From contig JAJHRM010000009.1 of assembly GCA_020832965.1 (NCBI GenBank), positions 1 to 39,161 on the forward strand: a stretch of 39,161 nt of DNA. The letters run 5' to 3'. This stretch comes from Thermofilum sp. (GTDB lineage Archaea > Thermoproteota > Thermoprotei > Thermofilales > Thermofilaceae). Positions 5,379-23,576 of the stretch are shown in pieces. Numbering within the stretch: position 1 is the first letter of the stretch; each line of letters begins with the position of its first letter. Under the pieces are notes generated by a model that saw nothing but the letters and a program-made list of their open reading frames with translations, ran no database searches and was not told where the DNA came from. Made by a program: the position numbers and the translations under genes.

Positions 5379-6435
5379 GGGTAGTCACCCACAGGCTTGA
5401 AAACATTTCCTGCACCTGCCTAATGGTGATTTTCTCGTTGGTGCTCGTCGCCTGCTCCTCTGAGAGTCTGAGTTTCGCGAGTGTGGGGGTGAAGCGCCAG
5501 AGGTGGTAGTTGAGGAATTCCTCTCGGCTGGACACGTTCGAATAGTACTCCCTATGCGTCCTTGCGAGTATGGACTCCACTAAGCCTTCGTCTTCTACTT
5601 CGTGCTTTTCCGATGCTTTTAGCTCGTACAGCCCCCTGTAGGGGCAGAACCTGCAGCTCACCCTTGGCAGGCCTTGCAGGTAATGAGGGTGTATTAGCCC
5701 GGTCTCCCTAAGGATCCCTGCCACATCAGTGATTGTGAGGTCGTGCACCAGATTCACTACCCCGCCACTGAGGAATGCGCCTTTGGTGGCGAGGCTTGAC
5801 AAGCGCTCGTACCTCTTGCCCGCTTCTAGGGCTCTCTCAGCCTTAGCCTCGAAGTCGGCCTTGATCCTCTTTTTCGCCTCCCGGAGGCTTCGAGTCTTCA
5901 GGTATGTGCACCACCTGTCCCCCCTCTTTGGGAGCCCCTGGGTAGCCAGGTAGTAGAGGAGCTTGCTCCTGTCGGGCGTGGCTGTTTCCAGGGGGACTCC
6001 GAGCTTGGAGGAAACTTCCTCGACGAATTTGTAGTTTTCCACAGGCTCTAGGAAGGGCATGTGGACGTATACAGCTGTTAGCTTGAAGTTTACTCTTTCT
6101 CTCAGCCTTTGCAGGAGCATGAGGTTTGCAGTGCTGTCTTTTCCCCCGCTAAGGTCTGCCATTACATGCTTTCCTTCGAGGTGTTTGCCGTGCCTCGCGG
6201 CTATCTGGTTTATTCTCTCCTCAAGAGAGTCAAGGCTCTTGCTTGGGATCCCGCTTGTGGGCGGCTCGTAGACCGCGTTGTAGAAGGGACCGTTTCCCGC
6301 GTATAGGCTTCCAGCATCACCGGACCAAAGATAGGTTTTCGTGGTTGCATCGCATGTGCACTCGACGAAGTCGGAGAAGGTCCTCACGTAGCCTCTGACC
6401 TGCCCATTGCTGATCACTGGGTATCTTTCCATCAC
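5368..6435 (-). CDS. PP-loop ATP pyrophosphatase, PAPS-reductase-like family
   Basis: 355 residues. The SGGKDST PP-loop (residues 96-102) binds ATP or adenylated substrate. Two cysteine sites follow: Arg-Trp-Cys-Thr near residue 180, and a Cys-x-x-Cys in 'VSCRFCPYRG' near residue 270, which could hold a metal or iron-sulfur centre. An N-terminal segment also has C-T-C. The family includes PAPS/APS reductases, tRNA thiolation enzymes and DndC-type DNA sulfur-modification proteins; the sequence does not let me choose. GTG 6435 and ATG 6432 are both possible starts. The 3' end of RNA element C supplies a purine-rich GGGGGAG just before them. It is coupled to the downstream nuclease by an 11-base overlap. 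Confidence 0.72.
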   Translation of the reverse strand: MMERYPVISNGQVRGYVRTFSDFVECTCDATTKTYLWSGDAGSLYAGNGPFYNAVYEPPTSGIPSKSLDSLEERINQIAARHGKHLEGKHVMADLSGGKDSTANLMLLQRLRERVNFKLTAVYVHMPFLEPVENYKFVEEVSSKLGVPLETATPDRSKLLYYLATQGLPKRGDRWCTYLKTRSLREAKKRIKADFEAKAERALEAGKRYERLSSLATKGAFLSGGVVNLVHDLTITDVAGILRETGLIHPHYLQGLPRVSCRFCPYRGLYELKASEKHEVEDEGLVESILARTHREYYSNVSSREEFLNYHLWRFTPTLAKLRLSEEQATSTNEKITIRQVQEMFSSLWVTTRGE

Positions 6436-6651
6436 GGCGCACTCCCCCTATTCCGCCCCTTCATTGATCGAAGGTTCCCCAAGATGTGTGGCATGGAGTG
6501 CCAAGGGCTTAACACCTCCTAGCGCCCCCTCGGTCCCACACGAAGACCCCCAAGGATTTGCGGGCTGCGCTTGTGACCGCCCACCCTGGGGAGCGGGTTT
6601 GGGTTAGGCTGTAGCGTTGCCGTCGCTCCCCTCTGCTTGGCTGTATAGCCG
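6436..6651 (-). ncRNA. Structured RNA element C (same family as element A); leader of the PP-loop gene
   Basis: A gene-free, G/C-rich stretch between the hydrolase stop (6674) and the PP-loop gene start. On the minus strand it shares colinear blocks with element A. These are CAAACCCGCTCCCCAG (6586-6601; 15 of 16 match), a GCGGT-x-AC and GC-x-GCCCGCA pair, an ACCGA block, a hairpin followed by CCATG, and AATGAAGGGGCGGAATAGGG (6445-6465 region), which matches AATGACGGGCGGAATGTGGG in A. A TATA box at 6672-6681 predicts a transcript start near 6651. It ends exactly at the next start codon, so it could be a cis-acting leader, an independent RNA, or both. An 8-bp stem GGGGAGCG/CGCTCCCC is possible (6588-6595 with 6624-6631). 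No known RNA family recognised. Confidence 0.6.
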
Positions 6652-7318: not shown

Positions 7319-7767
7319 AATCTAATGCTTGTAGAACAGCAATTTATTCTTTTTGTGCTATCGCGTAGACCGCGCGCGGCGCGCGCTAAGAGCTGGAAGT
7401 TACTTCTGAATGCTTAAATTGTGGTATAGGAAAGAAGTCATAAAAGCATCGAAGGAAAAGAAAATTAATTTGAAAAGGAGATTAGAAGGGTTGAAAAGAC
7501 AGTGTTTTCCTTCCCTAATAACAACTGAAATTCGACTTAAATTTTTAAAGGACTCATTGCAGAACTCTCAGGTAGACGGGTATGCATGCAATGCATAGGA
7601 ATGTTAAGGCCAGCCTCTCACACCTCGCCAGATGGTTTCGCGACAGGTTCAAGGCATCTGTGAACACTCTCTATATGCGCATCCACCCCTACATTCGGTG
7701 CGCGCGCTCACGAGTTAAAATAACTCGTGGTGGGCCCTTCCCGTACCCTGGAAGGAATATACAAATT
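7319..7767. other. Intergenic region with AT-rich centre, strong hairpin and GC-alternating repeats
   Basis: The first 30 bases hold the promoter of the leftward hydrolase gene. At 7370-7392 there is an alternating CGCGCG tract. Bases 7410-7560 are A-rich and could encode a basic 62-residue peptide (7410-7598, plus), but I see no supporting signal. A TATA-like ACTTAAATTTTTAAA (about 7535-7550) is followed by a possible 65-residue reading frame (7582-7779), also unsupported. The right end holds the hairpin and inverted repeat listed separately. Confidence 0.5.
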
Positions 7768-7789
7768 TTAGCTGCCTAGCGCGCGCACC
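7697..7789. repeat. 12-bp perfect inverted repeat GGTGCGCGCGCT / AGCGCGCGCACC
   Basis: The arms are 7697-7708 and 7778-7789, exact reverse complements separated by 69 bases. The right arm lies within the last codons of the biotin carrier gene (encoding Val-Arg-Ala-Leu). The left arm abuts the hairpin at 7709. The same arm sequence ends RNA element B (22511-22522). Confidence 0.7.
7709..7729. terminator. 9-bp perfect stem-loop downstream of the biotin carrier gene
   Basis: CACGAGTTA and TAACTCGTG pair perfectly around an AAA loop. It is about 40 bases beyond the stop codon of the leftward carboxylase operon, so it may mark the 3' end of that message. Archaeal termination normally needs only a T-run, so a role as a processing or protein site is equally possible. 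Confidence 0.35.
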
Positions 7790-13593: not shown

Positions 13594-13752
13594 CGCGCAG
13601 ACAGCGCTGACAGTTTCCAACAGCACACACAGGTACTCTCTCCACTCTAAGATCTCCCGGAGCCTCCACGCCTGAACAGAGTGCGCGCTTTCCTTGTTAA
13701 TGCTGGAGATTCCTGGCAATGGGTTTATAAGGGTTTTGTCGCACATTGAGAC
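13594..13752. other. Intergenic stretch before RNA element A
   Basis: Contains two GCGCGC tracts (13593-13600, 13682-13689) and no reading frame I can support. It ends with the TATA box of element A. Confidence 0.5.
13724..13730 (+). promoter_or_regulatory. TATA box for RNA element A
   Basis: TTTATAA, preceded by GGG, lies 26 bases before the predicted start at about 13753. No start codon with a meaningful frame follows, supporting an untranslated transcript. Confidence 0.55.
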
Positions 13753-13990
13753 GAATGGAAGTAAGCGGGCGCGCTGAAGAGGCATTAGGGTTCCTCAAAC
13801 CCGTTCCCCAGAGGAGCGGTAACCGCAGATGCGGCCCGCAGCTACTGGGGCTCCAGCGCGCGGTACCGAAGAGGGGGTGAATCCCGGCAACGGGCAGACC
13901 CCATGACACCCCCAAGCCGATACAGCGAGGGCTGTGAGGGCGCTCTGACCAAAAAATGACGGGCGGAATGTGGGGTGAGCGCACGCTTAG
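13753..13990 (+). ncRNA. Structured RNA element A, founding copy of a repeated RNA family
   Basis: About 240 G/C-rich bases without a credible gene. It can fold into several stems. CCCCAG (13806-13811) pairs with CTGGGG (13845-13850) enclosing a GCGG-UAA-CCGC hairpin. GGGG pairs with CCCC around an inner CCCG-GCAA-CGGG stem with a GNRA loop (about 13873-13902). Compared with element C, the blocks at 13796-13811, ~13816-13850, 13865-13870, 13873-13905 and 13955-13975 match in order. With element B the blocks at 13847-13863 (16 of 17), 13897-13910 (13 of 14), 13927-13934 (8 of 8) and 13962-13990 match in order. It has its own TATA box. The 3' end is uncertain (13990-14030). I looked for RNase P and SRP RNA signatures and found neither. 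Confidence 0.65.
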
Positions 13991-14078
13991 GGCAGGAAAC
14001 GAGTTTAATGTGCGCTAGTTAGCAGTTTTCAATAAGCATGGGAAAACTTCCAAGAGGAAAACCTGTGAGGGGGGCTTA

Positions 14079-22163: not shown

Positions 22164-22352
22164 GTGCGCTACAGGTGTCCAAGGTGCGGCTTAAAGTGGG
22201 AGCGTGACAAGGGCGTAGAGTACTGCCTCATCTACGCCTACTTCGCGGGGATGGCGAGGGAGGAGTCGGACGACTACATGGTGATGGCTGCGAGGATCCT
22301 CGAAGCCGTGAGGAAGTGGCTGGAGGGGCACGTAAACGTGCTCACCTACTAG
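22164..22352 (+). CDS. Small zinc-ribbon-like protein coupled to tldDE
   Basis: 62 residues from GTG 22164, one base after the tldE stop (a TTG 10 codons earlier is possible but inside tldE). Y-R-C-P-R-C-G begins the protein, with one further Cys at about residue 20, so only half a classical zinc ribbon is visible. The rest is a helix pair (DDYMVMAARILEAVRKWLEG). It could bind zinc as a dimer or with a partner. Unknown function; operon position hints at a role with TldDE. Confidence 0.6.
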   Translation: MRYRCPRCGLKWERDKGVEYCLIYAYFAGMAREESDDYMVMAARILEAVRKWLEGHVNVLTY

Positions 22353-22388
22353 CACCCTTCGCCTGGGAGCAGAGGATCATTCAAGCCT

Positions 22389-23576
22389 CTAAGGGGCTCC
22401 TGCGCGCGGGAGCCCAAAGAGAGGATGAGGCGACGACCCCATGACTCCAGAGCACCCCAACAGCAACGCTGAGGGCTGCGATGAGGCCGCCGCAACGTGG
22501 CGGGGATGAGGGTGCGCGCGCTTAGCTTTTAGCCGGATCTCTCTTCTCCTGTAGAGAAGTACCGCCGCGACCATTAGTGCCGCCGCAGCGAAAGCTATCG
22601 CAATTACGATGTGTGGACGCCAGTAGGGTGGCACGGTTAAGCCTTGACGCCTCGTAGCAGTCGCCCTATGTAGCAGGGCATCGCCTGAGTAGAGCTCAAC
22701 GTCTACCGGGGCGTTCCTTACATCTGGGAAGACCAGCTCGACTCTCTCATTGACGTACAGGTATGCCTTCCTGGCTTGGTCCGGCGTTGAGTGCACCCAG
22801 ACGTATACGTAGCCGCTTGTAGCCCCGGTATTCTCCACTACTACGTGTAGTCCGTCCCCGAGAACCTCGGCAGTCCTTATAACCGCTCTTACTTCCGGGG
22901 GTTCCCCCACCTTGATCAGCCCAGGTATGACCAGCTGGAAGACGTAGAAGTCTGGAGCTTCCTGCTCATTGTGGTTTATCCAGGTGAGCCCACCCAGGGT
23001 GCTCTGGGGTCCGTGGGAGTAGGGAGGCTCCCACCTGTAGTTAAGAAGCTTTGTCCCGTTGAGGAACACCTCTAATACGTCTATCCAGCTTCGTGGATCG
23101 GTGCTTGTGAAGCTGTCCCTGACCTTGACTTCAAAGATTGAGCCGTTGATTTGCCTCACATAGTTGCTGGTGTTGAGCCAGACCCTTACCGATACTATGT
23201 AGGCCCCTGGGAGCTGCTGCATCTTGCCTGTGCCTGTAACGTCGCATAGCACAGTTTCACCGTAACTCTTCTCGAGGGCCTTCAGCACCCAGAACCTTAA
23301 TAGCCTGGGGTTGTCGCTGAACATCAGCAGGGTGTAGTCGATCATCCGCGGGAGTGACTGGTTCATGTCCCTCGCGACGTCTGGGTCGTCGAGGAGACTC
23401 TTGCCGTCGATTGTGAATGGGTGGAGCTTCTGGTCCACGATGACTGTGCCGTCCGGGTTGAAGGTTAGGCGGAAGTTAAGTGCTATCCAGTACCTCGGCT
23501 GCGCGTGGACGCGTGCTGCTTGCCATAGGAGGCACATCGCGAGGAAAACCAGGATTACTGCCGATTTCCCCCTCAT
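22389..23576 (-). CDS. Secreted membrane-anchored protein, partner of the transglutaminase-like protein; tail encoded by element B
   Basis: 395 residues. A signal peptide (to about residue 25) leads into a ~300-residue extracellular domain rich in Trp/Tyr and beta strands with several N-x-S/T sequons. A transmembrane helix (about 329-350) follows, then R-R-R-E-I-R and a cytoplasmic tail. Start ATG 23576 abuts the stop of the upstream transglutaminase-like gene, so they are co-translated. The last ~45 residues (Pro/His/Ser/Ala-rich) come from the DNA of repeat element B read antisense. The ancestral protein probably ended a few residues after the basic segment. Function is unknown. Confidence 0.72.
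   Translation of the reverse strand: MRGKSAVILVFLAMCLLWQAARVHAQPRYWIALNFRLTFNPDGTVIVDQKLHPFTIDGKSLLDDPDVARDMNQSLPRMIDYTLLMFSDNPRLLRFWVLKALEKSYGETVLCDVTGTGKMQQLPGAYIVSVRVWLNTSNYVRQINGSIFEVKVRDSFTSTDPRSWIDVLEVFLNGTKLLNYRWEPPYSHGPQSTLGGLTWINHNEQEAPDFYVFQLVIPGLIKVGEPPEVRAVIRTAEVLGDGLHVVVENTGATSGYVYVWVHSTPDQARKAYLYVNERVELVFPDVRNAPVDVELYSGDALLHRATATRRQGLTVPPYWRPHIVIAIAFAAAALMVAAVLLYRRREIRLKAKRAHPHPRHVAAASSQPSALLLGCSGVMGSSPHPLFGLPRAGAP
22393..22525 (+). ncRNA. Element B, a degenerate third copy of the structured RNA family
   Basis: Blocks matching element A in order: 22393-22409 (16 of 17), 22435-22448 (13 of 14), 22471-22478 (8 of 8) and 22499-22525 (a GGCGG-rich block ending GCGCGCTTAG). The 5' third of the family (CAAACCCG block) is not recognisable, and the central stem pairs poorly. 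No convincing promoter is seen just upstream, where a zinc-protein gene ends. It lies antisense to the 3' end of the neighbouring gene. Probably an inactive or truncated copy. Confidence 0.5.

Follow-up and report, generated by a model that had tools for sequence, protein, structure and literature searches.

Solo repeats in a Thermofilum contig are probably right-end omega RNAs left behind by TnpB elements

Results

Elements A, B and C

The window (the whole analyzed stretch of 39,161 nt, contig JAJHRM010000009.1 of Thermofilum sp.) carries three related elements, named A, B and C. The next gene after element A, an unrelated DUF4129 gene, starts about 130 nt past the end of A. Element B overlaps the end of a convergent gene in antisense orientation. 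Element C is flanked by two same-strand genes and extends to the start codon of a gene for a PAPS_reduct-domain protein. Their features are listed below with scores from covariance model R2, which is described in the next section.

6416..6435, minus strand: putative guide of C, coinciding with the start of the downstream PAPS_reduct-domain gene
6437..6600, minus strand: probable omega RNA scaffold of C (25.8 bits, E 0.009; A–C alignment far above shuffles)
6601..6650, minus strand: 5' leader of C up to the presumed insertion border, without a TATA box (border placed by eye against genome G014)
13681..13688, plus strand: GTGCGCGC in the window sequence, presumed left boundary of A
13724..13731, plus strand: TATA box of A, TTTATAAG (7/8 match, 73 nt before the first model position)
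13759..13796, plus strand: possible tnpB 3'-end remnant in the leader of A, stops included (frame comparison)
13797..13986, plus strand: probable omega RNA scaffold of A (55.9 bits, E 2e-7)
13987..14006, plus strand: putative guide of A, just 3' of the conserved end; first base approximate
22170..22352, plus strand: C-terminal TnpB fragment preceding B (matches P0188 over 60 aa at 68% identity)
22353..22521, plus strand: probable omega RNA scaffold of B, 5' hairpin degenerate (50.4 bits, E 1.5e-6, match from 22351)
22522..22541, plus strand: putative guide of B

An earlier reading of the letters alone (the sequence-only reading) had reported the three elements with shorter spans; they reach beyond these.

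The predicted start of A is about 13750–13755. The frame K*AGALKRH*GSSNPF in its leader aligned to KYTGFLKRHAKFLNPF of P0173/P0174, and in a library of 91 TnpB relatives this stretch matched P0171, P0173, P0174, and P0175 with E values of 0.001–0.006. These matches continue into the RNA and are short and weak alone. The fragment before B was clearer. Positions 22170–22349 matched P0188 in the same library (E 2e-26; E 5e-7 by tblastn), followed by a stop at 22350–22352. It comprises the second half of the zinc ribbon, the RuvC-III region, the C-terminus, and the stop. At C, the library gave no tnpB remnant at E ≤ 0.01. The sequence-only reading had found no convincing protein frame in A and C, and this was borne out for both, but it had missed the fragment before B and the weak stretch in the leader of A. 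It had also placed TATA boxes at matching distances before A and C. The box of A stood, but for C the best match in the 130 nt upstream was 5/8, and the place proposed for its box was the stop codon of the upstream gene.

The reading frame of the convergent gene at B (22389–23576, minus strand) enters the element, so its C-terminus is replaced by element sequence after about RLKAK, compared with NZ13 and G014. The motif GTGCGCGC was found eight times on the two window strands, 13681 and 22512 included, versus about 1.3 expected (0.67 per strand; order-1 Markov model). It may be an insertion motif or mark left-over right ends. An inverted repeat of 25 nt with 80% complementarity (7697–7721 and 7765–7789, 43 nt apart) has GTGCGCGC in both arms. 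In Thermofilales archaeon RSNS8 (G005), the left end of most copies is bordered, near its outer side, by a GCGCGC-type sequence. At the other end, copies are conserved up to GCGCGC and variable beyond. The 3' border, and with it the first guide base, is approximate.

Alignments and covariance models

The sequence-only reading had proposed that A, B and C form one repeated family. The local alignment score was 68 for A and C (500 dinucleotide shuffles: mean 24.2, maximum 43) and 79 for A and B (500 shuffles: mean 24.6, maximum 45), whereas the direct alignment of B and C scored 24, which was at the shuffle level (mean 22.5, maximum 37). Model R1 was made from 13 copies, with A, B and C among them; it scored A at 147 bits, A itself being part of R1. 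Because R1 includes the window copies, R2 was built from 13 sequences of other genomes and none of the window. At E ≤ 10, R2 gave three matches in the window, and these were A, B and C. The best R2 match on nine comparison stretches had an E value of 1.1, and that on the syntenic stretch L212 of G014 was 12.3 bits (E 4.5).

The sequence-only reading was right in calling the repeats a structured-RNA family. No Rfam family matched the window at E ≤ 1, and ARAGORN found no match in the window. RNase P, SRP, and other Rfam RNAs were rejected as candidates on the same family-model search.

RNA structure

Folding energies were modestly low, with z values of −2.26 for A, −1.80 for C, and −1.39 for B; 7/200, 7/200, and 18/200 shuffles, respectively, folded as well as the native sequence.

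RNAalifold found 0 pairs in the 31-row alignment A5, so the hairpins were examined by arm swapping. The test covered 26 of the 31 rows; B, L107, L180, L160, and L175:3368 had no anchor and were passed over. Among the rows used, at least two (L185 and L182) had wrongly cut arms and the permutation leaves relatedness in; read with this limit, own arms of the first (5') hairpin had a mean of −13.8 kcal/mol versus −10.2 kcal/mol for swapped arms, and 0 of 2000 permutations were as low. The values were −12.6 versus −8.9 kcal/mol for A and −16.2 versus −11.4 kcal/mol for C. The second hairpin, with the loop GCGCGC, had −8.5 kcal/mol overall versus −6.8 kcal/mol after swapping (0/2000 permutations). 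In C it also paired better with its own arms (−7.7 versus −5.2 kcal/mol), and in A it was poorly paired (own −5.4, swapped mean −7.2 kcal/mol). B is able to form it as GGCUCC-UGCGCGCG-GGAGCC.

Column-wise covariation was mixed. Six doubly changed pairs were counted versus a shuffled mean of 6.4, and 74.5% of cells were paired versus a shuffled mean of 70.6% (4/500 shuffles as high). The sequence-only reading had taken a compensatory change between A and C as support for folding. The first-hairpin arm swap agrees with this, but the column-wise count does so only in part.

The GCGCGC loop and the GCGCGC 3' end are complementary, but both are self-complementary and hardly vary. RNAalifold on R2 paired them without informative change. 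A pseudoknot between the two would fit omega RNAs; the RNA of ISDra2 is described as having a pseudoknot in its structure (PMC10097598).

Orthologous sites in a syntenic genome

The window comes from a Thermofilum-like archaeon, its TldD being 83% identical to a TldD named T. pendens. Gene order around A, B and C is the same in G014, which we take to be Thermofilum pendens Hrk5. At the C site, the distance from the upstream stop to the homologous GTG start is 19 nt in G014 and 238 nt in the window; a longer listed frame in G014 would overlap the upstream gene. The gap at the A site is 50 nt in G014 and 526 nt in the window. At the B site, the convergent frames of G014 overlap (the TldE-like gene ends at 2925 and its partner at 2908), and they overlap in NZ13 also. 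R1 had no match in G014 at E ≤ 1 (best 150 of 669 candidates), and no TnpB match was found there at E ≤ 1e-5. Judged by these comparisons, all three window sites are unoccupied in G014 and the window copies are insertions. They would therefore be defective mobile-element insertions, not host non-coding RNA genes in fixed places.

Linkage to TnpB in relatives

A genome-contig scan with the PAPS_reduct-domain protein found no relative, so relatives were gathered via TldD alignment (80 loci). A DNA search with element A in six genomes gave matches at E ≤ 1 in four, strong only in RSNS8 (best E 6e-12). Two RSNS8 copies are located just downstream of a Cas12f1-like_TNB ORF, and a third follows a similar ORF.

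R1 was then run on the 17 family genomes, with up to 150 first-look candidates scored per genome, and matched at E ≤ 1 in seven. In NZ13 (G001), 8 of 18 R1 matches at E ≤ 1 were on the same strand and 31–119 nt after a TnpB match. NZ13 is a fair test because it contributed nothing to R1 or R2. In RSNS8, 5 of 16 matches came directly after TnpB, a biased count since all five are in R1 and two (L128 and L142) were picked by looking downstream of TnpB. In G015 it was 2 of 5, one of them in R1. Across 81 genomes of the class, searched under stricter filters, only four had a match at E ≤ 0.001, and each of the four belongs to the 17-genome family set. In database ORFs P0170, P0199, P0204, and P0206, the C-terminus contains A-type RNA translated in frame. 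Where tnpB is present, the RNA lies within tens of bases 3' of the gene and ends at the right border of the element, so flanking host DNA would be the guide.

Asp215, Glu345, Asp411, and CxxC...CxxC were invariant in 12/12 aligned TnpBs (12 of 66 match rows); the three acidic residues are the putative RuvC catalytic residues. Pfam Cas12f1-like_TNB scored above cut-off in 5/5 TnpBs tested. A sequence search of solved structures gave four matches at E ≤ 1; TnpB was not among their names, and Cas12m ranked first (0.051). The identification as TnpB rests on Pfam and the conserved residues.

At loci L134, L137, L181, and L183 of G001 and G015, the upstream DNA is common to some TnpB copies and two tnpB-less copies. 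ORF pieces in this DNA presumably resemble a wHTH and a SWIM-like protein with CxC...CxH; they may be cargo or belong to a larger element.

Copies without tnpB in relatives

Six RSNS8 matches had no tnpB directly before them: C105:17197, C95:2604, C32:5623, C45:2170, C32:30402, and C137:13957. The last has a weak TnpB match about 750 nt upstream, beyond another partial element, and C95 keeps about 15 codons of a tnpB start (E 0.038). The remaining five of the 16 matches were left out of this sorting (a contig end, a 3' fragment, and three weak ones). Ten RSNS8 copies, five with tnpB and five without, have 110 nt before the TATA region in common. Left ends of the 25 mixed pairs were 66–79% identical, compared with a shuffled mean of 44% and maximum of 55%; random stretches of the same loci, possibly including left ends, reached at most 69%. 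A AGCTCCGCTGGAGC-type palindrome was present in most of the RSNS8 left ends examined.

Four of the tnpB-less RSNS8 copies keep a TATA-like box. The RNA core begins 22 nt after it in C45 (8/8) and 23 nt after it in C32b (7/8); the layout of C137 is alike, with a poor box. Boxes of at least 7/8 also precede the RNA of C95 by 128 nt, C105 by 96 nt, C32 by 90 nt, and A by 73 nt. The RSNS8 tnpB-less copies outside the model scored 45–74 bits (three copies), versus 79–122 bits for tnpB-linked copies, all of which are in the model. An ORF at L101:7294–8139 (minus strand), which we assume to be tyrosine-recombinase-like (XerA-like), adjoins the tnpB-less copy C105:17197.

In NZ13, 4 of 11 matches at E ≤ 0.11 had no tnpB directly before them (C24:117953, C24:143013, C9:699, and C19:377), and G015 had one such match (C1:1590825). 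These matches were weak, and a 7/8 box was found in C19:377 only, too close at 11 nt.

Transposases and guides

The Y1 transposase domain PF01797 was found in 1 of the 17 family genomes (G013), and the serine recombinase domain PF00239 in 5 (G006, G007, G009, G010, and G013). Neither was found in G005, G001, G015, G016, G017, G012, or G002, some of these genomes being incomplete; hits in G015 and G017 are on single contigs of 1.83 and 1.61 Mb. G007 had two weak R1 matches with E about 0.15. Genomes with TnpB (E ≤ 1e-5) or the RNA (E ≤ 0.001) had neither a Y1 nor a serine transposase detected. G005, G001, G015, and G016, with no such transposase detected, have 6 to 30 TnpB matches each.

The putative guides were searched in IMG/VR as exact patterns. 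A (first 18 nt), B (20 nt), and C (20 nt) gave 0 matches each.

Discussion

TnpB is an RNA-guided DNA-cutting enzyme related to CRISPR Cas12. We propose, with a probability of about 0.88, that A, B and C are the omega RNAs (reRNAs) from the right ends of IS-like elements whose tnpB was lost (A and C) or reduced to a C-terminal stub (B), and that they belong to a divergent TnpB family found in Thermofilum relatives. The sequence-only reading knew of no family for these repeats, and on this proposal they do belong to one. At the level of sequence comparison, the homology of A, B and C, their insertion, the loss of tnpB, and the adjacency of tnpB in relatives are established. So are a tnpB remnant at B and, weakly, one at A, as well as the left end shared by tnpB-less RSNS8 copies, two of which have a TATA-like box 22–23 nt from the RNA core.

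A TnpB–omega RNA element would have inserted at three places and then lost its nuclease gene. The TATA box of A may drive its transcription, and C may be cotranscribed with the two genes on either side of it. A TnpB made elsewhere in the genome would bind the scaffold and use the next 16–20 nt as a guide. The loaded TnpB would cut the matching site lacking the insertion, which would help the element to persist. Should the genome have no TnpB left, the copies would be inert fossils.

Two refinements are compatible with this proposal. According to the first, which we hold somewhat more probable than its opposite, the window copies are inert, decaying remnants. Most of tnpB and the 5' hairpin are gone from B, C has diverged and lacks a TATA box, and stops occur in the leader of A; set against these is the first hairpin of A and C, whose own arms pair better than swapped partners. 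According to the second, selection maintains the solo copies as functional guide RNAs that act in trans, and a single TnpB with dispersed guides serves defence or gene control. We consider this unlikely. Trans action is supported by the promoter-like box 22–23 nt before the RNA core of two RSNS8 copies and by the first hairpin kept in A and C, and the putative catalytic residues are intact in all 12 aligned TnpBs. However, descent from the tnpB promoter accounts for the promoters, and no copy was seen kept at one site across species. The lack of exact IMG/VR matches to the A, B and C guides and the lower scores of tnpB-less RSNS8 copies outside the model lend it no support.

An explanation outside mobile elements, that these RNAs are cis-acting leaders (riboswitch or attenuator-like) of neighboring genes, is very improbable. 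It would suit C, placed between same-strand genes and ending at the PAPS_reduct-domain start codon, but it does not suit A before an unrelated gene or B antisense over a convergent gene end, and the NZ13 matches that follow tnpB (8/18) also speak against it. We rejected it because the neighbors differ and the orthologous places in G014 have no element. A host non-coding RNA (RNase P, SRP, snoRNA-like, or other) unrelated to mobile elements has a negligible chance of being correct, since GC-rich, somewhat structured RNA is all that favors it and the missing Rfam match, the three copies at sites empty in a relative, and the linkage to tnpB all oppose it.

The proposed elements can be compared with known systems. 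The reRNA of ISDra2 is encoded at the tnpB 3' end and the right end of the element, with a scaffold followed by a guide from flanking DNA (PMC8612924, PMC10097598). As in those accounts of ISDra2, the relatives have a structured scaffold 3' of tnpB at the right end, then a putative flanking-DNA guide, and a RuvC TnpB. Unlike ISDra2 as described there, the elements here have their RNA core downstream of the tnpB stop codon and a GC-rich left flank (GTGCGCGC in A) in place of TTGAT, Y1 TnpA was not found, and several copies have no tnpB; the likeness is one of layout, not of RNA sequence.

The nearest known kind is the PATEs of haloarchaea. They are transposase-free, some being described as IS605-type elements minus the core, and in Natronomonas 35/38 tnpB genes are reported without an adjoining tnpA (PMC3119063). 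As reported for PATEs, the ends match full elements: five RSNS8 tnpB-less copies share the left end and the RNA, and in the window this comparison covers the RNA end and the tnpB remnants only. Unlike the PATEs of that report, these elements belong to another clade, differ in sequence, and retain the guide-RNA scaffold in full. Some copies also have a promoter-like box, and a remnant might thus still serve as a guide-RNA gene. Stand-alone omega RNAs have been reported for IscB, where the nuclease gene is not beside them. Both cases lack an adjoining nuclease gene, and the case here involves TnpB, not IscB. TldR proteins are described as nuclease-dead, RNA-guided TnpB relatives acting as regulators (PMC13418256). 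By that description, the aligned TnpBs are set apart from TldR, since 12/12 keep the putative catalytic RuvC residues.

Among the open-licence papers on TnpB that a literature search brought up, no title or abstract opening describes this omega-RNA family of Thermofilum relatives, and words such as orphan, MITE, and remnant are absent from PMC12558985, which deals with archaeal omega RNAs. The analysis provides a covariance model for an omega-RNA family with no Rfam match in the window, linked to a divergent TnpB clade.

These results show that the loss of tnpB can leave solo guide-RNA remnants behind, some of which have a promoter-like box. A bolder idea, which we also think improbable, is that these TnpBs use dispersed stand-alone guide-RNA genes: tnpB would be removed repeatedly, the element promoter would drive the omega RNA, one nuclease would be programmed in trans with guides corresponding to landing sites, and the elements would spread with no Y1 or serine transposase in the genome. 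If true, this would resemble the guide set of CRISPR, but scattered and with no array. The use of trans guides from dispersed loci by TnpB, and spread without a detected Y1 or serine TnpA, now become testable. The findings also call for caution, as GC-rich repeated "ncRNAs" of thermophile genomes may be transposon guide RNAs.
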